A DNA stretch of 64,000 bases from Isoetes taiwanensis (lineage: Eukaryota; Streptophyta; Lycopodiopsida; Isoetales; Isoetaceae), in NCBI GenBank assembly GCA_021234155.1, contig JAJEKV010000035.1, forward strand, positions 10,168,407 through 10,232,406, given 5' to 3'. Positions within the stretch are counted from its first letter, which is position 1. The number at the start of each line of letters is the position of its first letter. Below the pieces are notes generated by a model. The model was not told the DNA's origin. It made no database searches and worked only from the letters and a program-made list of their open reading frames with translations. The position numbers and the translations under genes are program-made. Positions 8,374 through 55,876 of the stretch are shown in pieces.

Positions 8374-11238
8374 ATGCAACCACCATTTGAGATGAGAAAC
8401 AAGATGGACGAAGAGATGGGAAGGATGCCATTTGTGTCTATCGTGCTTGCTTATCAGCAATGGAACAAATAAGGAATATCCAGGTCGAGAATTTTGGGTT
8501 TTCCCCAGGCAGTCCACGTTCAATGAAATTATTGAATGCCATTCTCGGCAATATGACTTCACTGCTTTAGATTTAAAGTGGAAAAAATATTACAAGATGG
8601 ATGTTGCTAGCTTTGAGAGATTAGTGGAGCTCCTTTCCCCTTATTTGATCATTCCTGGCCGAAAGGTAAGACCGCCATTAGACATAAGAACTGCGATCAA
8701 GATTGTCTTATATAGGTTGGTTAGCGGCATGAGCACTAGACGCATGCAGGACTTGTTCCAGGTTGGAAAATCCACCATTGAAAAATATACCAACAAGATC
8801 TGTGGGATTCTGGCTGATAGAAATAAACTTTTGAGGTTTTTTATCTAAATTCCTAGAGGTGATGATTTGATAAGAGTGATTAATAGCTTTGAAGAACTTT
8901 GTGGCCTCCCAAAGTGTTGTCGTGCAGCTGACGGATCTTATATTGTGCTCAAAGAAAAACCAGCAAAAAAATATGATACACATGCTTATCATAATAGGAA
9001 GGGCATCAGTTCCATGTTATTGCAAGGCCTATGTGATACTAACAAGATGTTCTTGGATGTATGTTGCTTGTTTCCTGGTGGTGTCCATGATGCCAGTCAA
9101 TTTGCTCATTCATCCTTGTACAGGAAGCTGAAGTATAACATTGAATGTAGTGGGCCAATACTACAATTGCAATGTGATAATTACCAACAAGAAGGAAGAA
9201 TAGAATAGAATAGAATAGTTTTTTTAACGTCCACGGAGACCAATAGGTCATGGGACCCATACAATGGGCTAGTACAATCATTACTACTAGGATTAAAAAA
9301 CCCCTGCCTCGAAAGGTTTTCAAGGGAAAAACCTTTGCAGTAATGATGATACTAGACAAGCAGAGATAATGACTACTGAGGGCTCAGTAATTGCAGGCGT
9401 TTATCTAGAACCTCAAGTATGTATAATGCCAAGTCATGCACAGATGGTGCTCTGGGAAGTTGTGGAAGCGTGGAATGGAATGCTAAGGTCAAAAAATGAT
9501 TCCGGACTATCTCAAAAGCGGGGCAACTTCGTAAGAGTATGGCTTTCATCTTCAATAACCTCAGAATCGCAACAGCACATAGCCTCGCTTCAAGGCAATT
9601 GCGGCCGCTCCCATCTACCTGTCTCAATCCGTAGCACCTGGGACCCCGTATGCGATTGATGCAATAGCTACAAGCTTGTTCCCGGACAATGAAGCAAGCA
9701 AATAAGCTTGGGGCCCCGGTGCCAAGGTGGGATTTATGTGTGCATGATAATGACCAGTTTTCACTTGGGCCAAAGTAATCAAGTCCCATATCTTTTGAGA
9801 AAAACGACCAGCGAGATATTGTTGCAAAAGCTCGAGATTGAACCGCAAGCATCGGGCAAATTTCGGTTGCACACAGCCCAATCCGGTAAACCATGTAGTG
9901 CAATGCTCTTTCCAACATCGTTTCAAACGCCGAGGAGATTCAGCCATGGCAAGTGCAAGAACAGATACCTAACATCATCCATGTGGTGCACCTTTGCGGA
10001 TATAGTGGAGATGGCGCTCATGGCGTAATGTTGAAGAGGCCAAAACCTGTCTCTTGTAAAAGAATAGCATAGGGCACCGTTGTTTTAACTCCGAGGCTGT
10101 AAGTGAGAAAGGACTTTTGCACCCGCCCCAAGCTCTCCCAAGCACTAGCACTAATGGCGTGCCCCCACATTTGAGAACCATACAAGAAAAGGCTCTACCA
10201 AAGCCCTAAAACAAGTGGGCTTTCAGAGCAAATCATGAATTTCTGCGAAAAACAATTGTTTTGCATTGCATAGAGTGCTCTCCATCCAAAGAGCCCACCC
10301 GCTTGGTAATACAATCGCTTCCCAAAGTGTGTTCTTACAGAATTCTACACCAAGATACTTGTAGCTATCTACAACTTCAACTTCAAGGCTATCATAGTGC
10401 ATAGGGGGAACATTGTGACGAAGATTGAACTACCAAAAGCTTGGTCTTTTGGAGATTAACACGCAAACCCTGTGTTCTCACAAAAACCGCGGAGCATGTA
10501 AATGTTGCCGCATACTAGCAAATATGTGCTGTATGAAATATCATCGATACATAAGTTGCCTAATGATATAGTGTGCCAAATGTGGACCTCCGCCGCCATG
10601 ATTATGAAGCCATTCTTCCAATTGATCAATGTACAAGCCAAAGAGTGTAGGAGATAAAGGGCAACCCTGACGAACTCCAATATTGCTAGTGATTTGAGTA
10701 CCTGATGCTGGAAATTTAGCAAAAACCCTTTCATAGAGCCGATAAACTGCATTTTGATTGTGGAACCCCAAGTGCCTGCAAGCGCTGCCAAAGAAGCTCG
10801 CGTGGTACTGTAAGAAGCATGCAGACAATCAATGTGCACCTATACATTCTAGTTGATACAGCCTATCCTTCTCGAGAATTCTGTATGAAGATTTTTAACA
10901 AGCCCACAAATCTCCTTATGAAGGAGTTTGATAGACACATCAAGCAAGGAAGGGTGGTGATTGAGAATATTTTTGGGATACTAAAAAGCAAGTTTTAGAT
11001 CTTAGGAAGTCTAAATTGTCACGTAGATAATGCATCAAAAATTATAGTGGCTTGTTGTGCTCTTCATAACTTTTGTAGGATGGCCACCCTTGGATTACCA
11101 TTAAATGAACCAAGGCCTGCTGAAAATGTGCCACCTTATGAGTTTGAACTCAATGCAAAGAGTCTGACAAGAAAAGGACAAGTATTGAGAAGTGCAGTCT
11201 TCCAAAATTGGTTGGCCGAGAGAGAGAATGGTATATGA
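8374..11238 (+). pseudogene. Harbinger-type DDE nuclease (transposase), broken
   Basis: A DDE_Tnp_4 transposase. The N-terminal part starts at the ATG at 8374 (MQPPFEMRNKMDEEMG), shifts frame near 8465, and continues with EYPGREFW. A helix-turn-helix-like stretch (RLVSGMSTRRMQDLF) and an in-frame TAA at 8846-8848 follow; the same frame resumes at IPRGDDL. The first catalytic Asp is in AADGSY (near 8930). The second is in ILVDTAYPS (10849-10875) and the Glu is in VVIENIFG (about 10959-10982). The gene is split between the first and second Asp by a LINE at about 9.2-10.8 kb and has a TAG at 10996-10998. It ends LAERENGI at 11238. Confidence 0.85.
9197..10830 (-). mobile_element. Truncated LINE (non-LTR retrotransposon) in the Harbinger gene
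   Basis: Minus-strand reverse transcriptase remnants are readable: the RT block GVRQGCPLSPTLFGLYIDQL (near 10.6-10.7 kb), followed by frame-shifted C-terminal sequence to about 9.4 kb. The 3' end is marked by GACGTTAAAAAAA and then a tail of (TATTC)n, seen on the + strand as AGAAT repeats at 9197-9218. It is 5'-truncated, since only the later RT motifs remain. Exact ends and target duplication are unclear to within about 20 bases. The same 3' tail type occurs at 31310-31364. Confidence 0.75.
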
Positions 11239-37325: not shown

Positions 37326-39569
37326 TTAAGCCGCATAGTAGTGCTCTAGTCGAAAGTCTCTACTGGCCAGAGTTTCTCCACTGGCCAAAGTTTCTCGTGC
37401 AGTCTTAATGAGATCCTCCATCGTCTCATTGTATTGACTTACGCCCATAGTGCCACTAACGGAGTTGAAATTTTCTGCGTGCGACAATGATTTCGACATT
37501 GCATCCAAGTGCATTTCTATATTTTCATTGATAAATATTTTGCAGAAGGATCTACCCTGCTTCATTAGCTCAACAACAACTTCTACAGCATGGCGACGAA
37601 TTCTTGGGAGCTCGTTTTTGAAGTTCGGAAGTTTACCTAGTAAGCTGCTCACTGCTTTAGGCATATCCTCCAGTACATCATGTTCAGTTATGGACACTGC
37701 ACGGACTATTTCTTTTGCGAAACCAAGGTAAGCTTCCAGCAATTCATTTTCTTCTTGTCCATCGACTACTTGTATAGGCAGTTCATTAAGCACTTTTATC
37801 CTTTCCTTGATTCTTGCCATGACATGTCTAGCAGCCTCGCTGACTATCTTTTCCGTCTTCTCCTTGCTCAGATTTGCACAAAGACTTCGGAGAATCTTTG
37901 CAGCACGTATTGATACCCTAGCATTGCTGCCATTTTCCAACTTGTTTTTTATTTTAAAGAGGGCACTTTCATCTCTTACTATTCTCTCACAATTCTTTGG
38001 ACTATGCCATGCCAAGCTGTTAAGAACTTTTGCTGCTTCAAGAGATTCATTTTCAATGAATAAAATCATGAGAAGATGTATCACATTTCCTGTATTCCCA
38101 ATTGCATCCTTGAGGTCAGGTTCTAGAGCCAAATTCTTGAGAATGGCTAGGGCATATCCTTTGAACTTATCTATTTCACTTTTGAGAAGATCACGAAGCT
38201 TGTCTAGTGCAGACAATTGTGTGCATATCTCATTCCTGATGACCTTTGCAGATTCACCTATTGTTTCTGCAAGCAATCCAAGAATTTGCAGACTTCTGTC
38301 ACATATCATGGTGCCTGTATGGTCACTGTTTTGAATGGAATCAACATTTATGGATGACACTAGTGCTGCTATGAGCCCTCTAGTACGACCTATTTTAACA
38401 CAATGACTATGCTCCTTTGCCAGCTTTTTTAACATGTTAAGGGCTAGAAGTTTGAGCTCCTGACGATGTTTTTCATTAGCCATGCCTGTTTGATGTGACC
38501 TTTCCTTGCTTGTATTATTGATTACAACAGAAGCTATACCTTCCAGACCCCCTGGTATGGCTCCTATTCTGAAGCAAATAATCCTGTAATGGACAAGTCC
38601 ATCTAACACAATTGCTGCTCCTCTTATGATATCCTGATCCGTCCCATTTCTCCAACTCCAGGTGAGCATATCTAGAACCCGCTCAAGTATATGCGGCGTA
38701 GTTGCAAATTTTCTAGCTCGCATTTCTTTAGTAACATCAAATCTTTTTTCATTCTCATTGTTACTCTCATTCTCATTCTCATTATGCTTTACTAATGCAG
38801 CTAAAACCGTTACCCCTGCAAGTTGTTTCTCGTAACGGTTGGATTGAATTTTTTCCATGCTAAAGTCAATCAGATCCAAACCTATGCCTTCAAAACTGCT
38901 AGTCAAGGAACGAGAGTAAACGAACTCGTAAAACATGCTCACCAAGTCTTCGTCCTGAAGTTTACATTTCTGGCTGATATGCCTAAACAGTTTGCTTCCT
39001 TTAACCCACCAATAGGTTCTGAGAGCTAGAAATATCACTACCTCTAAGATAGTTAAGCCATAATAGATATACAGAGCACTATTTCGATTTGATGCGGACC
39101 TATTAAGCTTTCCAAAATTATGCTCACCAATGCGATATGCTGCCAAAGCAAGGGAAACACAGCAAAAGAGGAGTTGTAAGATGCGAAGTTGCCTTACAGT
39201 TTTTGGACGTGCTGCTGCAGCCGACCTCCTTGATCCTGCCTCAACATCGATAATTTGACATTTGCTTTTTGCAAAGCACTTAGCAAATACTCGTTGACAC
39301 TCGAATTCTCGAGTTATAACTAGTGCACGGACGCCACCAATTACAAGCAGAGCTATAATAGACCAAAAATCATTGGAGCTGATCGAGCCAACAATGAGAC
39401 CACCCAACAGCACCACAGTTGCCCACATGAATGCTAGAGCACCAGTAACACGAGATAACTTTGTGAGGACGACCACCCTGGTTGCTAAAATTATCACGTC
39501 CTCTTCAGGTTGCTCTTCATTCTCAATACCACAATATCTTTCATAGGGATGATTAGATTGCTTCAGCAT
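37326..39569 (-). CDS. Membrane-anchored armadillo-repeat-like protein (BLE2-like)
   Basis: An intact, single-exon, 747-residue gene. The N-terminal third has four predicted membrane segments at about residues 41-62, 68-86, 127-147 and 167-187, with SSNDFW after the first, a layout known from the plant BLE2-like family. A Glu/Asn-rich linker (HNENENESNNENE, about 262-274) separates this from a long alpha-helical region (about 285-730). That region has repeated Leu/Ala-rich helices such as LKLLALNMLKKLA, YALAILKNLALEP and AAKVLNSLAWHS, typical of armadillo folds. The start is the first ATG of the frame, and no better upstream ATG is in frame. Molecular function is not established for this family as far as I know. 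It is the only long intact gene in the window outside the dirigents. Confidence 0.85.
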   Translation of the reverse strand: MLKQSNHPYERYCGIENEEQPEEDVIILATRVVVLTKLSRVTGALAFMWATVVLLGGLIVGSISSNDFWSIIALLVIGGVRALVITREFECQRVFAKCFAKSKCQIIDVEAGSRRSAAAARPKTVRQLRILQLLFCCVSLALAAYRIGEHNFGKLNRSASNRNSALYIYYGLTILEVVIFLALRTYWWVKGSKLFRHISQKCKLQDEDLVSMFYEFVYSRSLTSSFEGIGLDLIDFSMEKIQSNRYEKQLAGVTVLAALVKHNENENESNNENEKRFDVTKEMRARKFATTPHILERVLDMLTWSWRNGTDQDIIRGAAIVLDGLVHYRIICFRIGAIPGGLEGIASVVINNTSKERSHQTGMANEKHRQELKLLALNMLKKLAKEHSHCVKIGRTRGLIAALVSSINVDSIQNSDHTGTMICDRSLQILGLLAETIGESAKVIRNEICTQLSALDKLRDLLKSEIDKFKGYALAILKNLALEPDLKDAIGNTGNVIHLLMILFIENESLEAAKVLNSLAWHSPKNCERIVRDESALFKIKNKLENGSNARVSIRAAKILRSLCANLSKEKTEKIVSEAARHVMARIKERIKVLNELPIQVVDGQEENELLEAYLGFAKEIVRAVSITEHDVLEDMPKAVSSLLGKLPNFKNELPRIRRHAVEVVVELMKQGRSFCKIFINENIEMHLDAMSKSLSHAENFNSVSGTMGVSQYNETMEDLIKTARETLASGETLASRDFRLEHYYAA

Positions 39570-40297
39570 TGTGATTCAAGTATTTGGTTTACAGACAGGT
39601 AGACCTTTTAAAGCAAGCTCCTAGTGATTAGTTCAAGTCAACTCATTTGTTTTGTTCAACAATGCCAGAAATGCCAGACATGACGTGACTTAGATTACAG
39701 TTTATGAGACAACAACGTCCGGACGTGACATAGATTACGATTTATCCAAGCTCTAACTTAAACATAATTTTCCAGAATAATGTTCCGTCTTTTTTCTGCT
39801 CAGGGGTGTCAAATGGCGTACAATCCTTTCGTTTAGTCGTTAGGAATTTTTAAGTTAGATTTTTCTTTTCAATCACGAACTGATTACCGAAGTACTTCAT
39901 CATTATTCTATGCTGTAAGATATGATAATCTATTTTCACATACTCTATGTAAATGTCTGGTCACTATCCATGAACCATGGCGTATATGGATGCAAATGGA
40001 AGATTCTGGTCTTCATACAAAACATGTAAAGCTAAGACTTACATAGCAACACAATTTCTTATTATGCTCCACCTACATCTTATTATGCTCCGACTACATC
40101 TAGTATAATATGGTGGACTTGTTCAACCTACATAATTGTTTACAAGAAATTTATTGCTGTGGCCTACTCCTGCAAGGCCAAACTTGCGAGTCTCCTTTGA
40201 CATGCCGCTGCGAGCATTTCCCTTTCCCAACATCCGTGCCTTTACTCACTTATATGCTAAAAATGTAATTAAACTTTGTATCAGTTTCAGAACATAC
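39570..40297. other. Upstream region of the armadillo gene
   Basis: Probable promoter and intergenic sequence. A short tandem copy of CTTATTATGCTCC.ACTACATCT lies at about 40057-40101. It ends at the left terminus of the 12.6-kb element. Confidence 0.4.
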
Positions 40298-40322
40298 AAG
40301 TCGTATTTAATTAAAGTGGGAC
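40298..40322 (+). repeat. Left 25-bp terminal inverted repeat
   Basis: Exact reverse complement of 52865-52889, preceded by ATAC. Confidence 0.8.
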
Positions 40323-40658
40323 TCATTCCATTCCCATTTTTTTTCGGAACCCTGTTAATTTACACGAAAAGAAGCACCCCGACCCGAAAACTATCCTTAA
40401 TTCGATTTTTTGTCTAGAACTCTGCATCGAAGCTTTCCTCCAGTTTTCCCTGGATAGCGAGTCGAGAACAAGAACAATGCAACTGAAACAAAGGAAATTC
40501 ATTAAAGATTGAAACCAAAGCTCTAGTTGAAAAAGAATTTTTATTAATAAATTGAATAGGTACAATGTATTTTTACATCTGGACGCAGAGACCATGGCGG
40601 TCTTCTTTGCCTGCCGCTACAGATTACATCATCTTGGTAGGTGGTCCACCTTAGGGGA

Positions 40659-41126
40659 TTAACTTAAGGCTTCTTCACGCCGACCGTAAGCCTTGGGGGC
40701 AACCTCAAGAGTGTGGAATGCCTCACGTGGAGGTGCCTCTCTCGAGCTACCGGCCGACTGTCCACCCGACTTCTCCACTCGCCTCCCCGCAGCCTTTTCA
40801 TCGAATATGCTCCTTCCCCAACCTCCGTGGATGTTATGCAATGCTTGCAAGATGCTTTGAGCTTCCTTCGGATCTGCCTCAAATTTCTTGGCGGTGTTCT
40901 TTATCCCCGGGTGTGCATGGCGCCAATTCACGAAAGCAACCTTATCCCAAAGGCCTGCAAGAGTGTAGCGTGGAGCTGATCTCGTGCCCGAATCGGTATT
41001 TCTTCCGCCTTGAAGGGGATCCGTCCCGCCTCGAGCTGCCTCTCGGATGCCTCGAGGGGGATGCTCACAGGCTTGTCTGATGCTGCGGTTCGAACCACCG
41101 GAGCAAGGAGAGTCTATGATTAACAA
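40659..41126 (-). CDS. Hypothetical protein, possibly part of the 12.6-kb element
   Basis: A 155-codon minus-strand open frame. Part of it (AGLWDKVAFVNWRHAHPGIK, FEADPKEAQSILQALHNIHG) looks protein-like, the rest is Arg/Gly-rich. Shifted frames on both strands are also open because the region is GC-richer, so it may be partly spurious. No domain recognised. Confidence 0.25.
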   Translation of the reverse strand: MLIIDSPCSGGSNRSIRQACEHPPRGIREAARGGTDPLQGGRNTDSGTRSAPRYTLAGLWDKVAFVNWRHAHPGIKNTAKKFEADPKEAQSILQALHNIHGGWGRSIFDEKAAGRRVEKSGGQSAGSSREAPPREAFHTLEVAPKAYGRREEALS

Positions 41127-41230
41127 TTACGGTGCCATTAGTCAAAACGAAGAAAAGAATGTTGAAAATCAAATTACAATGGAGAACATTCATTTCATAC
41201 AACCGCATCCAATGACGTGGGAAGTAGTGT

Positions 41231-41256
41231 CTTTCTCGACTCGCGAGTCGAGAAAG
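41231..41256. repeat. Perfect 26-bp palindrome
   Basis: CTTTCTCGACTCG is followed directly by its exact reverse complement. It is the best-preserved member of the dispersed family and could extrude as a cruciform. Confidence 0.95.
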
Positions 41257-41613
41257 TCAAAGTACAACCATTCTCATTAGAATATGGTTGCATCCAATCA
41301 CACACGGAAGCATACAAATGGTTTCGTCAATGAGACAGTAAGCATTCCTTTCTCGACTCGCGAGTGAAAGGCCCAAGAAAACCAATGTACAACCATTATC
41401 ATAATAGATTGTGGGTCGCATTCACCACACAAACAAACATACAAATGGTCTCATCATCAGATACAAGCATGCCTTTCTCGACTCGTGAGTCGAGAAAGCC
41501 AAAAAAACTCAATATACAAGTATATTCATTACAAAATGTAGTACATTTGTTCACGCTTTTGTTTACAATATTCACACAATTTGACTATCCAAAGCGTAGG
41601 TCACTCTTCTTGA

Positions 41614-44600
41614 TCACCAAAATATTTGTCGTCCATAGCTTTCATGATCGCCTTGCTCTCTGGATCGGGTTCCGCGGAGGCTCGGATAGTTCCTAATCAC
41701 ATCGGGCGACAAGAATGGCAAAAAGGGATTCCGCCAAGACAGACAAAGTCCGAAAGACAACCACCTATCCGTCTCATACTCTTCTGTGTCGATATGCCTT
41801 AGCAAGGATTGTATTTTGCGAAGTTATGATAGCACTTGTAGGCGAGTCGCTCTATGATCGGCGTGTTGTGTTTGCCATAGTCCTGAATTGCTCATAAACT
41901 CGGCCCAAATTTTTCACCATAATATGCTTCCCTTTGTGATGGCTCGGATCGAGGTCCGACACATGCTCGACCCTTTCGTTTCCCCAAACGAACTTGAACT
42001 TCAAACTGGAAGGCCGAGAACACCAAGAAAATTGACAATATTTTTCTTTGCCATACAAGACCATATGCCCACTTCGAATCCCCTGCCTGTGCACCATTCA
42101 ACAATTTCCTTTGCTCTAGGCCCGATACACGATTTTATGCTCGCTTTTTCTGATCGGATCTGCGGGTGTTAAGCTCGGGGACGCCTTTATCGTGGTATAC
42201 CGCAGCTAATACCCATTGACGCCAAATATTACAAGCTTGGTGGGACCAAATTGATCCCGCTTGAGTTTGGCTCACCATATTTCCGGTTCGTCGGGATCCA
42301 TATGCGATCATTAATTTTTCAAGAACTTTCGGGCGGTCCGCGCGTTGTTGCTCTTTATTGTCTTTGGGGTGTACAAGTGTCCTCATGACGTGAACCGCCA
42401 CTAGATATTGAAAATGATCCCGAGTCGCTATGCTCGATGTTCCCGAAATAATGAGAGATGTCGATAGTAACGAATTTTTCGACTCATGAAGTCGAGAATG
42501 GAAAGGTTTCTTGACTCACGAAGTCGAGAAACACGGACAGAGCAAAGTGAACTCACCTCAATTTCAGATTCTCAAGAATTTGTTCCGCAAAGATTCTGGT
42601 CTAAACCTCGAGATTCTCGCCTCCGTTTGTTTTCTCCCTCGCCTCGGTTTGTCTTCGCCATCATCGCCCCATCGCTTCCATTTGTCTTCCTCCCTTTGAA
42701 ATGCTCATGAAGCGCATCCGTGTATGACCAATGGTTTCAACCATGTCCTTATTACCAACCACGGATATAGGTTTCATTCCATACAAAGATAGCCCCCTCG
42801 AGAGAACAACAGCCATTCATGTACCACTCGCGATACAATTTGATCGCCTTCACCAAGCCGGTTATGAAGTACTTGATAACCCTTGGCCGGATAGGAATTC
42901 TATGTATAGGACCCTGCCGCACCATCATTGGTGACTTTGTCCATCGATGGCACATCCTCCATAACCGCCGCCGCCCTCCGTGGTTCCATCCGCTTTGAGA
43001 AATCATGAACCCGCCCGGATAATGATGTTCGCTAGACCACCACTTGTCCAGTCTACATACCGATCTTGAAACCAAAACCAAAACTATATTGGCAAAGCTT
43101 GGTGCCTTCGCAAGCCAAGTCTACACTCATGTTCAAGCTCGTATATGGAGTACAAGATCTTGTTGGTGAAGTTAATATCACCGCCCATTGGGAGACAAAG
43201 AAGTTGTCCGATTGTCCCCAAGATGCAAAACACAAGGAAACCGAAAGCATCCAGTTCGGTCATGTCCGCACACGCCTTGTACCATCGCTCTATGTCGGCT
43301 TTCTCATAAAAAAAAAGGGTGGGTTCTTCAATCATATTGATGGCAAATAGTGCCACGGGCCCAAAAGGCCTGCACCACCAAATCCCTTGTGTCCCAATGT
43401 TACCAGGAATGGGGAGCTATCATCGGCCTTAAATGGGACCACCCCGAATCCCAGCTTCCTCTTCAGAATTGCCATAGCACGTTCAGGGAAGGGAAGGGTT
43501 TTGACGTTACGCTTTAGCTTGGTGTTGATGTAGGGTTGACATAGACGGTTCAATTCCTTCATGTCTTCCTCATCAAGGGCAGCCTTTTCCTTGTAATAAT
43601 CAAAGTCATGGTATTCATTGGAAGCAACATTGCAGAACTCCGTGATGCCTTCCTCCAATGCACGCCGTCTCTTTAGGACTGTGGCATAATCCTTTGCATC
43701 CTGCATTTTTGAGCTTCTACTTTTCCTTAGCAGGATTGTTCCATCCAGGATTCTGCCCTGTAGATCAAGCGTTTCCTTGTCGGTCAGGCCCTGTATCCTT
43801 TTCATAAATTGCCTGTCGAACAACTTTGGGTCTGGCCTGCCTCTTGTCCATTGAGCCCATATCTCAGTCCATTTCTCCCCGCATCACCTCGATGCTAAGA
43901 ATGAGGTCATATTGGTCCGAGAGAGACTCCCCCCTTTTTCTTGGTGTTCTCTTCTTCTTTTCCTCTTCATCCTCCCCCTCATCATCTTCCCTCGCCTTCC
44001 AAAGAACATATCCGCAGAGTGACTCAAAGGTCTTCCACTTATCCGGGGAGCCCTGTTTCCTTTAGGACGCCGAGGACAACCCAATGCTTTCCACTTTCGA
44101 AGCGTGTATGATCCGGGTCGATATGGGTCGCATTCATAAATGTCCCAATGTTAGAGCATGAAAGTATCTACTAACATCCCAAAATAAACACTAAATAGGA
44201 GGATGGGGGGTTTCTCACTCCAGTCGAGAATGCCCCAAGGAGAGGAGAAAACATAGGAGAAAAGTCGAGGCCAGAGCAAAAGCATCACAGATTCCCAAAT
44301 CTTTGCTTTCACGCCTCTTGAACGATGCAACTTAGGATATAAACTTAGCGACATTGCCCTAAGAGGCGGGAAAGAAAAAGATTGGGAAGGCTCGAATGCA
44401 TTTGCTCTTCAACCATTAATCTCCAATGTTGTCTCTATTACATCGGGGGTTTCTCGACTCAAGCGAGTCAAGAAAGTGAGAGGAGCACAAGTAAGAAGAT
44501 TCAAGGGACTTTCGACCAAGGAAGTCGAGAATACCCTCGGAGAGGAGAGAACATAGTACGAGAGTGAAGGCCGAGAGTGAAAGCATCGCCATTCCTTGCC

Positions 44601-46200
44601 GCTTCTTGAACGATGCAACTTAGAATAGAAACTAAAAGCGATTATTGCCAAGAGGCTGGGAAGAAAGGATGGGAAGGCTCGATGCTTTCAATTAAATTGA
44701 CCATTAATCTCGAATGTTCTTTTCACTTTGGTTTCACTACTTCATGAGTCGAGAAAGTCCCTTTGAATGTTTACTTTTCTTTTTACTTCTATGGGTTTTC
44801 GACTTCGAAGTCGAAAAGCTCCGCATCCTTTGACTTCTTCAGTTTACTGCTTTCGACTCATGAGTCGAGAAAACCCTAATAAAAAACGAAAATGATAGGA
44901 TGTTAGGGCTTTCGACTCGCTGAAATGGTAGCTTCAATCGAAGAATTCTTTACCTTACGTAGCGCACTTTCGCCGCTATTGTGTTCGGGCAGCGGTGGCT
45001 AATGCTTGGCCCGGCTTCGGCGGTTGGCATCTCCGCCGCAAGAACTCGCGACTCTCGCAGCATATCTATCCTTGATCCTTTGTGGCACCTCCTTCTCTGG
45101 CTGCAATAATACTTGGCTTTTGCCCTCATCATGCTGACCGCCTACTACCCGTAACCGGATGTCTTTTCCCCTTCGTGTCTTCCTCGACTTCCAACAACAA
45201 CTCACCGCCGACTGCCGGAAGGTATGACATCCGGCAGGCATTGATCTCGGCAATGATGTCGCACCATCGTTGAAGGGGACTCCAGCATGTGTCTTGGATT
45301 GAATTCCCCGGGTTGAACAAGACGACATCTCCCGTGCACCTTCTTCAAAGGCCTCGATGTCCAAGAGCGGCTTTGTGTGCTATTCCCAACGGATAATACT
45401 TAGCCAGCCGCTCCATTTTCTGTGCCCCTCTCTGTGAAATCCTGATCTGCGCATCTGGATCCATTAATTGGGAGTCGACCATATCTTCGTCTGCTTCATC
45501 ATCTGATTCCTCCCGTGTGGTGTCATCTTCTCCATCTTTGGTCTTGTCCGGACTTTTTTCTTTATGAACCACAACTTGCTTCCCCACTGCCGAGTGTTGT
45601 AGAGTCTTGACAAAGACAAAGGAGGTGAAGCTCCCCGGTTGAACAGCTTTTTCCCCGACTCGAAATCTCCATTCCAAGCTCCCTGGATGTTAGGGTTCCG
45701 GCCTCCTTCATCCCTTCCAGATCCTTCCACCCAAGGTTCTGACAATTTAAAGGCGCCGGCCTTTTGTCGGTGCCCTTCGCCTTGCTCATTGAAGAGTGAG
45801 AATAATTTGAAACTGATAATTTTTTCGTGTGGTAGAACTTACTCTTCTGGCAGTCTTCCACATGAAATGTTAGATGCTTCGAATCTGGAGCTGAGACGCA
45901 GAGCACAACACCGACCTTCTTGTACTTTGTCTCCTGAGCTCTTCTTGTCCCTTTGGTGGAGAAAATGCATCTTTCTCCTTCCCACTTGTTGATACCTCGA
46001 CATACCACCAAGAATCACGGTGTGTCAAGAAGCTCGCTCCAGTCCCTCGATGACGAAGAACGAAGTTCGCCGCTGATCACTAGTGAGTCCGCGGTGAATG
46101 CCGCAAGACCAAAGGATGGATCAAGAAAGGTATTCCGACCAAAGAAAACCTCGAGCTCACCCGAACTACCGTTTTTTCTTCTTCTTGCCGCCGCTTAGAA
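41614..46200 (-). pseudogene. Unassigned minus-strand coding relic of the 12.6-kb element
   Basis: Several minus-strand blocks read like real protein but in shifting frames. 46200-45780 has GELEVFFGRNTFLDPSFGLA, then GINKWEGERCIFSTKGTR and KVGVVLCVSAPDSKHLTFHV. 45700-45000 has an acidic stretch, RISQRGAQKMERLAKYYPLG, then CWSPLQRWCDIIAEINACRM. 44050-43090 has FESLCGYVLWKARE, LFDRQFMKRIQGLTDKETLD, FLVTLGHKGFGGAGL and GTIGQLLCLPMGGDINFTNK. 42400-41620 has MVLYGKEKYCQFSW. Frames are often rejoined by a one-base loss in a G or T run (near 43880 and 43370). I do not recognise the protein. The palindrome-rich stretch 44150-44920 separates two coding blocks and may be an intron or spacer. Confidence 0.5.
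44796..44817. repeat. Perfect 22-bp palindrome
   Basis: TTTTCGACTTC is followed directly by GAAGTCGAAAA. Same family as 41231-41256 with a different centre. Confidence 0.95.
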
Positions 46201-47169
46201 CCAAATTACGCTCCCGCTACCGCTTTTGACGGAGTCATGTCTGTATGCCCCCGCATCTTCTTCCTGCTCGAACCCTTGTGTAAATTAAGTTTCCTCCGCT
46301 CGTTATAGGTTTTAGGACCGCATAAAAAAAGATCGGGCGTGTTCTTTAATTTGAATTTAAGGACATGCAATCATTTAAGAAAAAGCGGGCTAAAGGTACA
46401 AAGACGGGTCGGCTTTAGCCTGCCCAAATACCATTTCGAAATTGAATCACATCCAGGGACTTAGTGAGCGGAGTGTAGATTATCTTCACTGCGGCATTGG
46501 CGACTTTGAGTTGGGAGGCGAGCATCGACCGTAGTTTACTTCGAATGGCGCCGCCACGCTGTAAGCTCCTCACGCCTTTGCTCGTATTTTTTTCGACCGC
46601 CTTATTGCAAGCGCTGATTTGATCGATGAGCACCCGAGCTAAGGTAGGAAGCCGAGAGGAGCCGCCGCATTACACCTGAACTCTACATCGCCGCGCCATG
46701 GAATCCGGGGATACACGAATCGCATTGATACAAGTATTAGATGCTAATGCACTCTTGATGAGACCGACGTAAGAAGCAAAGACTCTCTGAGGTCAGCGGA
46801 TCCGTGGATACAAAGGCCCAAGGAATTACCGCGTGAAGAGGTGAGTTTCGAGATGCCCCGTGTTATTTTGCGTGTAGAACATGCCGCCCGTGTTTAAATC
46901 ATGGAACCCTCCTATAAGCTCGACGGGTTTATTGTTTCCTTGTCCAGCATTTTTCAGCTTCGAGAGATGATTTACTCTCTGGGTTGAGAGATGCTAGGCA
47001 AGGAAACAATGGATCGGGGGTGAACTTGAAAAGTTCCGTTTTAGGTGTATTTTTTCTTGGAATGTTTTCTTGGAATGTTGTATATAGATCAGGCTAGGTC
47101 TAAGGCCCAGGAGATGTGGTTCAGATGCATCCTCCTCGTGGTTAGTCGAGAGGCTCTACCCGCCTGGAA
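46201..47169. other. Element interior, possible further coding
   Basis: A minus-strand open frame at 46415-46633 (NKAVEKNTSKGVRSLQRGG, SMLASQLKVANAAVKIIY) could be an upstream part of the unassigned relic. No domain is recognised. Confidence 0.3.
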
Positions 47170-48235
47170 CCACTCCTCTTCGCAATATTCGAGGAAGATG
47201 GTTCGAAGGAGAGTGGCTCAGACAGGCTAGAGGCACTTGGGACTAAAAACAGGAGAATATATACAAAGTGCTTAGTTGCAGAGACCTGTGCTAAGACCCA
47301 AAGGCCTGCAGATAGTCAGGGCCACTTCCCTTCGCAATATTCTCGAAAGCAATATAGTTTGAAGGAGAGTGGCTCAGACTGCCCCGCAGCACCGGAGAAT
47401 GCAGGGGATCGGGTTAAGGGATTCTCGACCATGAAGTCGAGAATGCAAGCCTTGGCTTTCTCTTCATTCTCGACTGCAGTCGATATGGCCAAGGCATTCC
47501 CGATGGCACGAGTCGAGAATGCGTTGTTAAGAAGCTCGTGGTTTCCCGGGTTGGTTGTAGAGGCCTCCACCCCACCGAAGCCCCTCCCTTCGCAATATTC
47601 ACGAAGATGGTTCAAGGAGAGTGGCTCGACCGGGTCGAGGGCCATCGCGACCATTCATACACAGGAGAATTGGTCGGTAATGGGATTCTCGACTTGGCGC
47701 AGTCGAGAATGCAAGTGTTAACTTCTCGTTTACATTCCGCAGTCGCAAGTCGAAATGCCAGCCATCGGTGAACTCCGCATAGTACACATGGAGTGCCCGC
47801 CGATAAGGCATTCTCGACTTCATGGCGAGCCGAATGCACATAACAAGCTCGCGGGTTTCCCCGCGGGTTAGTAGTAGAGGCCTTCCCACCGGCCCGAGCC
47901 CATCCCCTTCGCAATATTCAATTTTAAGATGGTTCAAGGAGACTCGCTCGACTAGGTAGAGGCCATCATGACCATACACGTGTGAGAATTGGTTGTTAGC
48001 TGGTCCAGATACCAAAACCACTTCCCTAATATCCGAGCAAGATACTTTAAAGGAGAGTGGTTAAGACCGGCTCGCAGCACTGTAATGCACTAGAGCTCAT
48101 GCTTTTCACCTCACGAAGTCGAAAGTAGCCAAAGACCTCGTGGTTAAAGTCGCCGAATTTCCAACCGTTCCCTCCCTTCAATATTCGATGATGGTTCAAG
48201 GAGAGGGCTCTGACCGGTGGAGGCACCGCACCGCA
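47170..48235 (+). repeat. Degenerate tandem units with CTTCGCAATATTC motif
   Basis: A block reading CTTCGCAATATTC, then GAAGATGGTT, then CAAGGAGAGTGGCTC recurs at about 47178, 47329, 47587, 47907, 48022 (decayed) and 48175. Spacings run from about 115 to 320 bases. Units often also contain a TTCTCGAC palindrome and a CTCGTGGTTTCCC.GGTT segment. The variable unit size suggests internal deletions or inserted palindromes. Confidence 0.8.
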
Positions 48236-48834
48236 TTAAAGGGCCATTGACAGAGTAATATTCCTCGACTCACGAAGCCGAGAAGGTCAGCAAGCAGCCG
48301 AAAATAATGTGAAGGCCGCAGCAGCCGAAAAGAATGTGAAGACCTTGGGAAGTCATAGTTCGACCGCTGAATGAATTTTCACTGTACTAACAATCCGTGA
48401 GTGTACATTCCCCTCTTCTCGACTCGCGAAGTCGAAGTTCTCGACTCACGAGTCGAGAAGAAGGCTTGTACTTCCCGGATTGTTGGCAAGTCGAGGTATT
48501 CTCAACTCGCCAAATGAGAAAGCCGATCCCTTCTCGCAGATCTCTCCCGCAGTGGAGGATATGCTGTTAGAATTGCAGATTCTGTGAAGCAATTCCTATT
48601 CTTAGTTGATAGTTAGGAAAAACGATTCCTAGTTATGTTCTGTTATGAAACATTCATAGATAGTTTAGCAATTTCTTTTGTGAATCATTCCTAGTAATGT
48701 TCTGTTAATGCTCTGCAATATCTTACTTCCTAACACCGCCTCCTCGATGATTTCTATCTCTGGCTGCTTGCTACTACTCTTACCACTATTCTCACTTGTG
48801 CCTGTACAATGTATTCAATTCAACAACAACTAAG

Positions 48835-49015
48835 AAAAAGATAACAAAAAACAGAAAACAATACAGAGAGATTAATAGATAACAGATAACAGATAACAGA
48901 TAACAGAGAGAAAACAGATAACAGATAGATTAATGAGATTAATGAGAAAACAGAGAACAGTGGAGACAAATGAGATTAATGAGAAAACAGAGAACAGGAG
49001 AGACAAATGAGATTA
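48835..49015 (+). repeat. Minisatellite (GATAACA)n and GAGATTAATGAGAAAACAGA units
   Basis: Four or more AGATAACA units are followed by a ~36-base unit (GAGATTAATGAGAAAACAGA, then GAACAG, then GAGACAAAT) repeated twice. Purine-rich and noncoding. Confidence 0.85.
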
Positions 49016-49619
49016 AAAAGGGTATGATACCGGAAGATTTGGTCGGATGAGGAGGAAGCTCCCTGCTCGATTCCATGTGGCTACAAAAGTGCTCGCAGAA
49101 AAGCGTGAATAAGGATTTGTCTACCGAAATTGCATCGTGCAATAATAAGAGCCTCTAACAACGTAATATAAGTAAAATGCAAAGAAAGGACTTACGAAAA
49201 CTAAAAAGAAGCAAAGAAAAAGCCTAAAACTTACAGAGAAGAACCTCACTTTCTTCTCGTGCAAGAACACCCGCCAACACTCAATCAAGGCTAAAAAACT
49301 TCTGGCTACTGATGCGCCCCGATCCGTCCGAAAGCAAGTCGCCGGCATAAGATGACCTTGAAATGGCTCGGTTCGCCGGCCTCACCGATGGGAAAACCGG
49401 GCGCTTTAAGGAAAACAGAGAGCGCTAAGAGTGATCGAGAAAACAGGGAGGAAGAATGGTCTGGGGAGGGGAAGAGGAAGAGGGTGCGCTTATTCTCGGC
49501 CGCAACCCTCGAACCCGGATCCGCCACGCAGGGCCATGCCTCCATGACGGGGGCAAGCAGGAAGGTTTACATGGCCATCCTATCAGCCTCGAGGAGGCTT
49601 ACCGTTTACCATGACAAGA

Positions 49620-49745
49620 TATTAAAGGTTATGTTGTATGTTTATATATGTTATGTTATGTTGTATATTTAATATGGTTATATAGTTTCAATGGTTATAT
49701 ATGGTTTATATGGTCATATTTGTGGTGTTTGGGGCTATATGGTTT
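49620..49745 (+). repeat. AT/GT-rich simple sequence
   Basis: Irregular TATGTTATGTTGTAT and GGTTATATATGG repeats just before the transposase-like relic. Noncoding. Confidence 0.8.
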
Positions 49746-49769
49746 TAATGTGTGCTTTTTCATTCGTGG

Positions 49770-52640
49770 AGCATGAGATGAGTAAAATGGAGCCAAGGAA
49801 GTCCAAAGACAAAGCCATTGCCCTAGGCTCCAATGGAGGAAGATGGGTTGCTTGTTGTTGCACCCTTGCAACGAGACGGTATTTGCAAGAGGGCATAATA
49901 ACCGCAGCTTGATCCTTTTGATAGTGTGAATGATGAAAGGCCGGGAGATGATCATCTTGGAGTTGGCATTGTGAAGCTTTTATTGAAGTTGATACAATCA
50001 TGTCCCGTGGAAGCTCTAGTGATTGCATTGTGTGCTCGGGTTGCCGGAGTCCCAAAGTCGGCTTGAGATGGCCAATTAGATATATTACACACAAGAATGG
50101 TGATAGTCCTGAATCCCCTACTCAACTACATACCCCAAGACCCACTCAAGGCCATGTGGAAGATTTGGTGGTCGATGAGCATTCTTTGATCACTAGGAAG
50201 AGACGTTATGTTTTTCATAAAAGGCAACCAAGGGTGCCCAAGAGGCCTAGAAGTGACAAATATTTAGAAAGGATGGAAAGTATGGCCCCAACCAAAGAAA
50301 AACCTAGAGGCAATTAGGGGACAAGAGTGTTGCAACCTAGATTGCACAAAGGCAAAGATGCTGTGGATGACCTCGTGGCAGATAAGGTCCCAATACATTG
50401 ACAGTCAAAAAGATAGGATTAATTTCATCTACTCCTTGTGTAAGAATTCCAGCTATGATGAAAACACAGTGAAGGCTACTATATCAATTGAGGGGCATGA
50501 GGGTATGTATGAGAGCATTGAGATGGATTCTTGGGGTGAGCAAGTCTTCATTCTACGATAATCGGGAGCAAGTTAGAAAAGGGCACGCTTTGTTCCAACA
50601 TCGTAATGCACCGACTTTGAAAACCTAGAGCAAATACTCTCAAGGCCATTGCGCCTTCGAGAGCTTTGTGAGATACATGTCTCAATCTATGCCCCACAAG
50701 TCGAAGCAGTGAACGAAAGCACTGCAGCGAGTGGTGCAAAAGGGTGTTGCCACAACACTATATCCAAAAGGAGTGCCTTAAAGAGGTCAACTCCATCCTA
50801 GAAACTACCGGAGGTAGGCCTCTTTCTCAATCACATTTTAGCAAGTTATGGAGCACTCACTTCTCGTGACGTGAGTGTCCCGCAACATATGCCATTCTCA
50901 AAGTGCAACACTTGCATTCAACTCAAGGATACACTTGCATCAACTCGCAATAGAGAAAGAAAGAATGGCAATTAGGGAGCAATTTGCAGATCACCAAAGG
51001 GACCAAATATCATGTAGACAGCTTTGTATTGGCAAAGTGGAGAACATTTTCCAGATGCAAATTGGGACAAATTTTTGTGTATAATTCATGATAAGATGGA
51101 CCAACACAAGACTTTCTTGCCAAAGCTAGATCCTTTACCCAAGCGCTTGTCAAAACGCTTTTCGATGAAAGTAAGTCCGGGCGGGTGTCTTAACACATGG
51201 TCATGGAACCGAACATATGGTCATTTTGTGCTTGATCTATGGAGGGATGATCCAAACTTCCATGTGAGCTCTATTTTCAAGTGCTTGAGAACACTAGAGA
51301 AAGGATCGATAGAAGGGAGGAGGTATTCCCTTCAAAGACCCATTTTTGAGGCTTTGATGGATGATCAACCGCTTTGTTACCAAAGGCGATAAAAAGCTCA
51401 CATCCAAGGTGTCTAGTGAATCAAGGAGGACTTGGGATGATTTCCCCTTACTTGAGAAACCACCGCCCGAGGAGCTATGTGTTCAATTGGACAACCGCTG
51501 GAAAGAAAACAAGAATAGATGGATGTTTGGGGCAATGTCATACTTGACAAAGAATGGGAGTATTCAAAGTTGTGAAAGTGGGATTCATGATGGTTGGGCA
51601 TACGCATGATGATATTGATGGATTCTTTGGAACTTTCTCCACCAAGCTCAAGAGAGAAAACGGACTAGTCTCCCCCAACTAATGGATGTGTTTGAGAGCC
51701 GCATTGACCCCAACCCAATGGCTTTCTTGATGGATGAGGTTGCGTGATTGGAAATCATTTATAGAGGGATACTTGCTAGATGGTAAGGACCAGTTGGATG
51801 GACACACAAAGCCACTTCAGTTCAAGTTTTGGGTTAGGGATGGAATACCAATCATGCAATATAAGTGGAGACCAGTGACAAGTTGTGGATGCCCCAGACA
51901 AGGAATCGAAGTTGTGGCAAAGGGGTGTCACTGGTGAAGTTCTCATTCCTAAAGGGCAGCCAAAACCACTACCTCCCTTCAAGACTGTCAAAGACTCTAG
52001 CCAACTAGTGAAGGGCATCAAGGATTACATAACGCACTGGGATGATGGTCGAAATGGAAAGCACACCTCCACTCTTAAGAGAAATCAAATGGACTCCCTA
52101 ATCAAGTACTGGGAGAAAGTTGTGACATGCTTAGAAACCGAACAACCATGTGGGAGGAAGCTAAGAGACTGCTCCTGCTTGAGTCAAGATGGGAGGGTTC
52201 TCAAGGAGCAAGCACGCCTAAGAATGTTCACTTGGGTCCCAACAAGGGTTCCAAGTGGTTTGTGGGAAGTAAGGCCTCAAAGCCAAGTGGTTTGATCTTC
52301 CCGAGTGGGATCCCTTTGAGGACATCAAGGAAGGATACTTTGTGCTAGTAAGGCCTGATGATGAGGACTGTCCAATATGGTTAGGGGTGGCACTCTCCAT
52401 GTAACCACCACTATGCATGATGGAGAGGAGTTGCGCCCCGGATTCCAAATTCAATATTGGGAGCCCATTGGGAGACACAAGAAGGGCAACTTGAAGGAGC
52501 AATACACCCAATCTGGCCGGGAGAAGAAGTGGAGGGCAAATTATGCTGATCCTCAAAGGAGGGAATTGGTGGAGTGTGTGGTATGGTCATATCCGTGTTC
52601 TCACACCGCAGCGACAACACACAAGATCCCAAAAGGGAGA
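49770..52640 (+). pseudogene. Transposase-like protein relic (DUF7869-like), copy A
   Basis: Blocks in several frames follow the order of a large uncharacterised transposase-like family. A basic N-terminal region lies near 50000-50317. FSKCNTC is a CxxC knuckle near 50890, and the region near 51050-51110 reads HFPDANWDKFLCIIHDKMDQ. YGHFVLDLWRDDPNFHVSSI, CVQLDN..KENKNRWMFGAM (51478-51530) and GHTHDDIDGFFG (51597 on) follow. FKFWVRDGIPIMQYKW, then VRPDDEDCPIWLG at the C-terminus complete the order. The Asp in HDKMDQ, the Asp in QLDN and the Asp residues in GHTHDDID are candidates for an RNase H-type DDD/E triad (inference). Many frameshifts and stops show it is dead. It lies at the right end of the 12.6-kb element. 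Confidence 0.7.
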
Positions 52641-52864
52641 TGGACAAAGCCATGAGCAACCTCCATGCTATATCATTGTATGAGGGTAGATAATATTGAG
52701 AAGCTTGAAAACTTTCTCAACTAGTGGTTTGTAAAATTTATGAGGAAAACAAGTAACCCAATTCTTTGTGTGTGATCTGTAATTCTATTCAAGCAATCAA
52801 TTCAAAAAAAAATTTTATGGGGTGTGAGTCCCATTTTCAGTCCGAGTCCCAAAATTCAAGATTT

Positions 52865-52889
52865 GTCCCACTTTAATTAAATACGACTT
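52865..52889 (-). repeat. Right 25-bp terminal inverted repeat
   Basis: Exact reverse complement of 40298-40322, followed by ATAC. Confidence 0.8.
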
Positions 52890-52893
52890 ATAC

Positions 52894-54269: not shown

Positions 54270-54514
54270 TTTCTATGGGTCGTTCATGACAAGATGGATT
54301 AGCAAAAAACCTGTTTGCCCCAATTTAGGGCTATACCAAAGTCTATTGCAAGGTCTTTCCCATTGCAAATATCACTAGCTGGATTCATAATTCATGGCCA
54401 GGGAGCAGTGCATCACGGTCATTTTACATTAGAATTATGGGGTGATGATCCAAACTTCCATGTTGGTAGTATTGCAAAAGCATTGTGCGATTTGGAACAT
54501 GGTTTTAATGGAGA

Positions 54515-55876
54515 CTAGTAATGGTGCCCAGCGTTGCTGGGCATAAGTTGAGAGCCTGTAAATGCTTTGGGATGCAGTGACAAAAGCCATATCCCTTTCC
54601 CTTTCCCTTTTGCTCTCCCGCATTTCATTTTTTCTTATTTTCTCTACTTTTTTTTTTTCTTTTCATTTTTTTTCTTATCTTTCTCACATGTTTCCTTGTT
54701 TTCCCATCCCTTTCCTTCCCCCTTCCCTGTTCCCGATAACCTTTTTCCCTTCCCTTTTGCTCCTTTCTCCACCTTTTCCCTCTTCTCTTTTTTCTTTGCC
54801 CTTTTCCCTTCCCTTTTGCTCCTTTTTCCACCTTTTCCCTCTTCTCTTTTTTCTTTGCCCTTTTCCCTTCCCCTTTCTCTTTTTTTATGCCTTCTCTTTT
54901 CCCCATCCTTTTTCCATGTCTTCCCTTTTTCTCAACCTTTTGCCCTTTTCCATGCCTATTTTCCCTTCTCTTTTCCTCCTTTTCCCACTCTTTTCCTCCC
55001 TTTTTTGTGTGCCCTTTTCCCTTCCATTTTTCTTTTCTCCCTCCCGTTTTCCATGCCCTTTTTACCTTCCCTTTTTCCATCTCCTCACCCTTTCCCTCTT
55101 TCCCTTTTCCATGTTCCTTTTTCTCTTCCCTTTTCCATTTTCTTCATTTCCTTTTTCCCGTGCCTCTCTCTCTTTCCCCCCTTTTCCATTCTTTTTTCTT
55201 TTCTATTTCCCTTTTCACATGCCCTTTTTCCCACCATTTTCTTCTTTCTATTTTTCCCGTGCTTCCTTTTCCTCCTTTTCCCACCCTTTCCCTCTTCCCG
55301 TGCAATTTTCCCTTCTTTCAACCCTTCCTTTTTCTTTTCTCTTTTCCTTTCCTCATGTCCTTTTTCCCTTTCCCTCCCCTCCATCACTCCCCTGCTTCCC
55401 TTTCCCTTTCTCTTTTTTCCCGTTTCCTTTTCTTGATGGATTTTTTTCTTTCCGTTTTCCTCCTTTGCTGATCCTTTTCCTGTGCACTCTTTCCCTTCCT
55501 TTCCTTTTCCTTTTCCCTTTTTCCATGACTTTTGCACATTTGTTTTATTCTCTTATTTTATATACCCATTTTCCTCTTTTCCCCACCCTTTCTCTCTTGC
55601 CCCTTTTCTTTTCCCTTTTTTCTTTTTTCCCTTTTCCTTTTACCCTTTTCCCTTTTCCCCATGCCTTTTTGCCCTTCACATTCTCTCTTTCCACTTCCCT
55701 TTTCCTTTTCCCCCTTTTCATTTACCCTTTCCCCTTAAGAGATCGAAGCATGACCAATCACAGTGTTGGTAAGTCGTGCAATAAATCTAGGCCTTCGGAT
55801 GCATCCAGATGATCTCGGCCATTCAAATTAGGGCTCGATGCACTACACACTTACGGTATAACATTATAATATAAGA
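54515..55876 (-). mobile_element. Non-autonomous Helitron, copy 1 (1362 bp)
   Basis: On the minus strand it starts TCTTATATTATAATG and ends CTAG, with an 8-bp-stem hairpin (TGCCCAGC / GCTGGGCA, 54525-54543) ten bases before the end. It sits between A and T with no target duplication. Joining the flanks (GGAGA + TATTCATTC) restores the transposase reading frame (GDIHS), which copy A supports by alignment. The interior is a long CCCTTTTCCC-type pyrimidine tract (about 54590-55730) with no Rep/helicase gene. Confidence 0.92.
54590..55735 (+). repeat. Polypyrimidine tract inside Helitron copy 1
   Basis: Over 1.1 kb of nearly pure C/T with phrases such as CCCTTTTCCCTTCC. Long frames of Phe, Ser, Pro and Leu on + and of Lys, Glu, Gly and Arg on - arise only from composition. 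Mirror-symmetric stretches could form triplex DNA. Confidence 0.95.

Follow-up and report, generated by a model that had tools for sequence, protein, structure and literature searches.

In a 64,000-nucleotide window of the Isoetes taiwanensis genome (NCBI GenBank assembly GCA_021234155.1, contig JAJEKV010000035.1, positions 10,168,407 to 10,232,406 of the forward strand; "the window" is this whole stretch), we identified a DNA transposon that carries a real, element-specific and lineage-conserved array of an exact 22-bp palindrome, TTCTCGACTCGCGAGTCGAGAA. The best explanation of the palindromes, to which we assign a probability of roughly 0.6, is that they are putative cis-acting binding sites of one DNA transposon family, and a protein-binding array in some form appears quite probable. 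An original prediction, made from the letters of the window, had named a binding-site array as one of several options, and this option is supported, as are the confinement of the sites to one kind of element and their avoidance of coding blocks.

The half-site TTCTCGACT (at most one mismatch) was found 47 times in the window against 10.5 expected from dinucleotide shuffles, and paired half-sites of the form CTCGACT(N0-12)AGTCGAG were found 4 times against 0.00 expected. Allowing at most three mismatches over the 18 arm bases, we detected 15 sites in the window, all within 41233-48459. The window element contains 13, 15 and 18 sites at limits of two, three and four mismatches, respectively, and therefore the "about 20 copies" of the original prediction are reached only by counting decayed copies, while its two perfect copies (26 bp at 41231-41256 and 22 bp at 44796-44817) and its three clusters were recovered, the latter at 41.2-42.5, 44.2-44.9 and 47.1-48.5 kb. 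A half-site scan of the genome had been proposed as a check; it covered, like all genome-wide counts here, 1,658,258,908 bp in 1110 contigs, and yielded 8,233 sites with intact arms (TTCTCGACT-N2-8-AGTCGAGAA) and 0 matches to the reversed pattern. The arms were spaced by exactly 4 in 6,563 of the 8,233, the exact 22-mer with the centre CGCG was present in 3,678 copies, and spacings of 9-39 were seen just 213 times, some of these being two neighbouring sites. Chance or base composition as the origin of the sites is ruled out by the shuffles, the genome counts and the reversed control.

The window element is bounded by terminal inverted repeats (TIRs), AAGTCGTATTTAATTAAAGTGGGAC, which are perfect over 25 bp at both ends, and by a target-site duplication, two features that this family shares with DDE cut-and-paste transposons. 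The TIR was counted 1661 times in forward and 1709 times in reverse orientation (at most two mismatches), and a reversed-sequence control gave 0. The first 100 listed TIR places are all exact, and many opposite pairs among them are ~4 kb or ~12 kb apart. We compared 19 elements: that of the window, three reached through palindrome matches (C13, C16 and C26), and 15 chosen from the listed TIR pairs, comprising 5 long and 10 short ones, with other listed pairs left out. An exact 4-bp target duplication was found in 17 of the 19, with a shifted one at C16 and none at n6. The nine long elements measure 11.0-13.5 kb and each matches all eight open-frame queries, and none of the ten short elements (3.5-5.8 kb) matches any of the eight. 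With ~1,700 TIRs per strand and 8,233 intact sites, this is a large family built on a domain of unknown function, DUF7869.

All 19 elements carry sites, 141 in 151,400 bp at up to two arm mismatches, whereas 22,061 bp of their flanks carry none at the same limit (0.2 expected from shuffles that preserve base composition only). Each of the 15 TIR-chosen elements has at least three sites; five of them (n1, n4, n6, C15 and C22b) were already in the palindrome listing, and each of the ten beyond that listing has at least four. Among 50 listed genome sites, 34 lie inward of a listed exact TIR and 16 have no listed TIR near. Eight of these 16, namely six at L003 and two at L001, lie in elements related by similarity, the other eight being left out. 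An even density of the motif across the genome, which the original prediction had set against itself, is therefore not what we found, and the enrichment in related elements that it asked about is borne out. The array had also been described as confined to one element at 40456-48526; it is confined to one kind of element, and that interval is too small for the element itself, which spans 40298-52889. This distribution also bears on the idea that a host transcription factor site is exploited for element expression. The symmetric 9-4-9 layout of the site fits a homodimeric factor, and the gene blocks are flanked and separated by sites; however, the flanks and the rest of the window hold no sites and thus give no sign of host use, and the two tested loci that lack a listed TIR, L003 and L001, belong to related elements. 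We consider a host factor site improbable.

In the long elements, the distances of the sites from the left end are ~0.9-1.3, 2.1-2.3, 3-4.6 and 5.9-8.2 kb, and neither the first 0.9 kb nor the right 4 kb contains a site in any of the nine, the DUF7869-bearing right 4 kb of the window element included. The sites therefore cannot be required at both ends. In the short elements, sites are found ~0.55-1.3 kb from the left end in 10/10, and 8/10 also have one or more in the last 1.2 kb before the right end, near which a CACT-centred version recurs, which indicates that the centre tolerates change. Coding blocks, which make up 47,715 of 109,824 bp (43%) of the nine long elements, were found from open frames of at least 150 codons, so that small exons may be missing; at an overlap of at least 11 bp they contain 0 of 89 long-element sites (p 9e-23) and 0 of the 13 window sites with up to two mismatches, in agreement with the avoidance of coding blocks that had been predicted.

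A subterminal array of the TNPA kind, in which a transposase or its partner would bind the sites to assemble an excision complex, has to be weighed against these positions. The short non-coding elements, which are necessarily moved in trans, keep sites in all ten cases, and eight of them have a site close to the right end. To judge from the available text of the source, palindromic motifs form subterminal arrays in Tgmt* and similar CACTA elements, as element-specific cis-determinants that non-autonomous copies have to retain, but the Tgmt* arrays reach no further than 159 and 732 bp from the element ends (PMC2613891). The sites of the long elements, in contrast, spread over 0.9-8.2 kb, with none in the outer parts described above, and we regard a TNPA-like array as unlikely.

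We examined the conservation of the site in three sets of aligned copies, taken from 40 scored loci each: the window-type array (A, 33 loci aligned), the C134-type array (B, 19) and the short-element array (N, 16); most of the other loci matched only in part or had simply not been retrieved. The consensus of the copies is exactly TTCTCGACTCGCGAGTCGAGAA at 18 of 21 sites (A 6/7, B 5/6, N 7/8), and the three remaining sites differ from it at 1-2 positions. The spacers between the sites behave differently. A and B consensus sequences differ at 17 of 111 spacer positions and at 1 of 66 site positions (p 0.003), two duplicates within A differ at 29/213 and 0/44 positions, respectively (p 0.007), and among six inner units of N, 10 of 46 spacer columns and none of 22 site columns are variable (p 0.02); trimming of unaligned edges had raised these p values from 7e-5, 0.001 and 0.0006. 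Since the consensus spacers changed and the sites did not, the exact site sequence was maintained in active lineages. The aligned copies point to one exact ancestral 22-bp palindrome, made of two 9-bp half-sites at a spacing of 4 and containing four CpGs.

Long and short forms share little else. In 90/90 pairs, the common outer sequence amounts to 114-237 bp on the left and 43-105 bp on the right; when matches of 60 bp or more were tallied, 59 others were found, and all of them overlap a palindrome site. Short elements contain 68-bp units, which are tandem duplications that take in the spacer, and the spacer modules of A and B differ. These comparisons also speak to the possibility that the palindromes are a neutral passenger, that is, a satellite-like tandem repeat inherited by descent and without function. 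Such a passenger is consistent with individual copies, in which the sites of A and B decay at roughly the rate of their flanks or more quickly. It is hard to reconcile with a 22-mer that is common to short and long forms when its surroundings are not, with spacers that diverge more than sites both between families and between tandem units (although the trimmed tests are moderate, p 0.003-0.02), and with the avoidance of coding blocks; we therefore think it rather improbable.

The original prediction held that symmetry rather than exact sequence appeared to have been kept, with a varying centre. As the main account this was rejected on the exact consensus. The centre is the most changed part of the site in family A, and most of the varied centres look like decay after insertion, which would explain the earlier impression of varying centres. 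The covariation between arms that had been suggested as a check gave a mixed result: arm changes on both sides of a pair numbered 90 against 31.8 expected under independence, with relatedness ignored, and 47 of the 90 were complementary. The two central pairs, however, account for 57 of the 90, and it is there that the alignment is least certain. This excess and the sharp-edged identical 22-mer in unrelated surroundings could also be read as traces of a tiny mobile palindrome, an option of the original prediction, or of a hairpin propagated through template switching, that happens to have spread within one element family. However, not one empty site was found in 473 site-instances (33 x 7, 19 x 6 and 16 x 8), an empty site being one with at least 15 of 22 columns gapped and the copies having been fetched by similarity to site-bearing queries, which introduces a bias. 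The flanks and the rest of the window have no sites, and the units of the short elements are tandem duplications that include the spacer. The tiny mobile palindrome was rejected because of the missing empty sites, with duplications around single palindromes not searched systematically, and it is very improbable.

For the cis-acting binding sites that we favour, the following mechanism is conceivable. A dimeric, sequence-specific protein encoded by the element, either an unassigned minus-strand product or the DUF7869 protein, would bind each site; the fixed spacing of 4, the replaceable centre and the two 9-bp arms would suit a homodimeric DNA-binding protein, and with four CpGs per site the binding itself could be methylation-sensitive. 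The sites would multiply through tandem duplication of site-bearing units. Binding would hold the control regions of the element open so that it can be expressed or mobilised; the most likely way would be to counter CG methylation, which is what VANC does in VANDAL elements. Anti-silencing is the leading candidate for the role of the sites; anti-silencing or transcription control taken together falls somewhat short of an even chance. Retention of the sites by the ten short elements fits both a VANC-like and a TNPA-like role; the VANC-like one is favoured because the sites span the left two thirds of the element and because of a CpG signature.

This signature was seen as a difference in decay. 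Outside the sites, the arrays have a CG/CHH transition odds ratio of 1.75-2.15. The corresponding values are 6.0 for the family's own DUF7869 gene (19 copies) and 6.6 for an unrelated repeat at window 9500-10200 that served as the control (16 copies). The ratios of odds ratios between the arrays and the DUF7869 gene or the control are 2.8-3.8 (p 3e-3 to 4e-11). Across the alignment of the nine long elements, the CpG observed/expected ratio is 0.95 in DNA up to 150 bp from a site, 0.80 in the remaining non-coding DNA, 0.82 in the coding blocks on the left and 0.22 in the DUF7869 gene; the CG/CHH transition ratios of these four parts are 1.86, 2.39, 2.47 and 5.92, respectively. For A (p 1.8e-5) and B (p 0.02), CG transitions occur at a lower absolute rate than in the control. 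The weaker CpG decay in the site-bearing part fits CG hypomethylation there, as an indirect sign. A more specific proposal is that a lycophyte DNA transposon superfamily evolved anti-silencing independently, in which an element protein would bind the palindrome and keep the site-bearing half CG-unmethylated while leaving the presumed DUF7869 transposase gene methylated; we put this forward only tentatively.

A number of observations weigh against the binding-site explanation and its proposed mechanism. Single copies do not protect their sites: in family A, substitution rates are 0.073 in sites and 0.062 in flanks outside CpGs, and 0.152 and 0.112 at CpGs, and gap openings and insertions in sites reach 2.0 and 2.7 times the flank rate. 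B sites are substituted about as often as their flanks, and N sites less often. Constraint therefore shows only at the level of the family consensus. The excess of insertions and deletions may reflect hairpin instability or nanopore consensus error. The CpG signature sets the DUF7869 gene apart from the rest instead of being centred on the sites; a single control family was used, and the copies compared are not independent. Relative to the DUF7869 gene, the arrays show no significant reduction in the absolute rate of CG transitions (p 0.11, 0.45 and 0.66), and N shows none relative to the control either (p 0.83). Array flanks diverge by a mean of 6.7% (2.4-12.7%) compared with 1.3-4.5% per copy in the DUF7869 stretch, and because the left regions diverge more overall, the CG/CHH ratio may be diluted; CpG content may also reflect the origin of the genes. 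The site-free right 4 kb of the long elements belongs here as well, as does the result that Pfam searches revealed no recognised DNA-binding domain in any protein of the element.

Among known systems, the closest are the VANDAL elements of Arabidopsis, for which sequence-specific transposon anti-silencing has been described, and CACTA elements with their TNPA-like proteins. According to the available text of two reports, short motifs in the non-coding tandem repeats of VANDAL elements are bound by VANC21 and VANC6, which cause a local loss of CG methylation; the motif recurs in introns as well as in intergenic and terminal non-coding DNA, within tandem repeats that vary from one related family to another (PMC5735166, PMC10398659). 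VANDAL21 and VANDAL6 share with our family the non-coding motif arrays, here with no site in coding blocks, and a tandem amplification that differs between families, here seen in the 68-bp units and the A and B spacer modules. Local CG demethylation in VANDALs may have as its counterpart here a weaker, indirect CpG-decay signature whose centre is not at the sites. VANC21 has YAGTATTAY as its motif, and the main text of that report contains no word beginning with "palindrom" (PMC5735166). In contrast, our family has a 22-bp perfect palindrome, a DUF7869 gene and 4-bp duplications, and no VANC homologue was identified in it by Pfam searches. VANDAL elements have a MULE transposase and a long target duplication of ~9 bp, in place of which we found DUF7869 and an exact 4 bp in 17/19. 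CACTA elements (En/Spm and Tgmt*) with TNPA-like proteins share element-specific repeated motifs, which are palindromic in Tgmt* in the available account (PMC2613891), but the ends here are AAGTCGTATTTAATTAAAGTGGGAC and not CACTA, the duplication is 4 bp and not 3 bp, and the sites lie up to 8 kb inside, with no subterminal array at both ends in 9/9 long elements. Membership in the CACTA or MULE groups was rejected on the element ends and the target duplication; on these two counts, together with its transposase domain, the element falls outside both the VANDAL/VANC and the CACTA/TNPA group. Sola and other eukaryotic DNA transposons have 4-bp target duplications and short terminal repeats. The elements described here are alike in both respects, and a link of DUF7869 to a named transposase superfamily is not established.

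If true, anti-silencing through these sites would be an independent case in a lycophyte, in another class of transposon and with an exact palindrome as the target, which would mean that this arms-race strategy recurs, and the defined 22-bp site would help to find the binding protein. Even if the sites serve only transposition or expression, they define a large family on DUF7869.

Table 1. Coordinates of the transposon, its palindrome sites and its coding blocks in the window
Feature	Position	Strand	Remarks
Left target-site duplication ATAC	40294..40297	.	exact 4-bp duplication in 17/19 elements examined
Whole DNA transposon, long form	40298..52889	+	12,592 bp; TIRs and target duplication; homology to copies L004 and L006 starts at 40298
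Left 25-bp TIR AAGTCGTATTTAATTAAAGTGGGAC	40298..40322	+	
Coding block p150	40671..41063	-	tblastn from sibling copy; in 9/9 long elements; no family found
Palindrome perfect over 26 bp	41231..41256	.	canonical 22-mer plus CT/AG
Decayed palindrome	41350..41367	.	left arm intact, right arm shortened
Palindrome, arms intact	41475..41496	.	centre CGTG
NIF/FCP1-type phosphatase block	41604..42338	-	broken in window; sibling C13 matches PF03031, E 1.2e-10
Palindrome pair	42476..42530	.	42476-42498 and 42508-42530
Coding block p412	42635..43838	-	no family, no convincing solved relative
Palindrome cluster	44222..44871	.	half-site 44222-44230 (decayed full site by alignment), 44451-44474, 44509-44531, 44733-44755, 44796-44817 (perfect 22 bp), 44850-44871
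Coding blocks p191 and p152	45077..46140	-	no family found
Palindrome cluster	47422..47709	.	47422-47443, 47467-47486, 47497-47519, 47686-47709
Weaker 4-mismatch sites	starts 47811 and 48499	.	
Palindrome cluster	48262..48459	.	48262-48284; 48438-48459 (arms intact, centre CACG)
N-terminal part of presumed transposase gene	49669..50950	+	coding-block search from sibling copies
DUF7869 part of presumed transposase gene	51243..52034	+	broken here; window fragment E 9.2e-7; sibling C13 E 1.7e-38
Right 25-bp TIR	52865..52889	-	paired with left copy
Right target-site duplication ATAC	52890..52893	.	

The long elements have a common gene layout, with the DUF7869 gene on the right (plus strand) and p150, the phosphatase, p412, p191 and p152 on the left (minus strand). 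DUF7869 is the sole Pfam match above the cut-off in the right-hand gene, and its product is a putative transposase; in the genome, 150 matches to it were scored out of 9907 first-look candidates, and a literature search for "DUF7869" returned no paper. A crude ratio of nonsynonymous to synonymous substitution rates of 0.96 for a 533-bp DUF7869 stretch is unreliable because the 19-copy consensus has no single open frame. No Pfam match was obtained for p150, p412, p152 or p191, with no direct comparison with VANC made, and sequence searches gave no convincing PDB relative for the DUF7869 protein (L037), p412 or the phosphatase. The FCP1/NIF-type phosphatase block is carried by the transposon in 9/9 long copies, and may have been taken up from the host.

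The two halves of the element differ in divergence. The right gene stretch at 51230-51760 matched 40/40 scored loci at 95-100% identity, and for the array at 44180-45000 no other scored locus exceeded 85% identity (40 loci scored); recombination or many source lineages perhaps account for this. At L007:2957-3077, two diverged left ends of the family face outward ~70-80 bp apart, perhaps as two insertions or an inverted pair. A search for a second TIR family at L001 (C1), allowing at most one mismatch in 16-bp arms, revealed none that has a 4-bp duplication.

Beside the element, a 749-amino-acid open frame at window 37326-39575 (minus strand), with no Pfam family above the cut-off, is probably a host gene. 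About 1.4 kb to the right of the element, at 54318-54515, a second and shorter stretch (...FRAIPKSIARSFPLQISLAGFIIHGQGAVHHGHFTLELWGDDPNFHVGSIAKAL...) resembles the DUF7869 gene by eye and may mark a further, broken member of the superfamily. A pyrimidine-rich tract lies at 54501-55750, with 72-93% C+T per 250 bp. Another dispersed repeat occupies window 9301-10806, of which 9500-10200 had 40 loci scored at 88-100% and 2580 first-look candidates; the adjoining open reading frame at 8396-8848 resembles, by eye, a piece of a PIF/Harbinger-type transposase.

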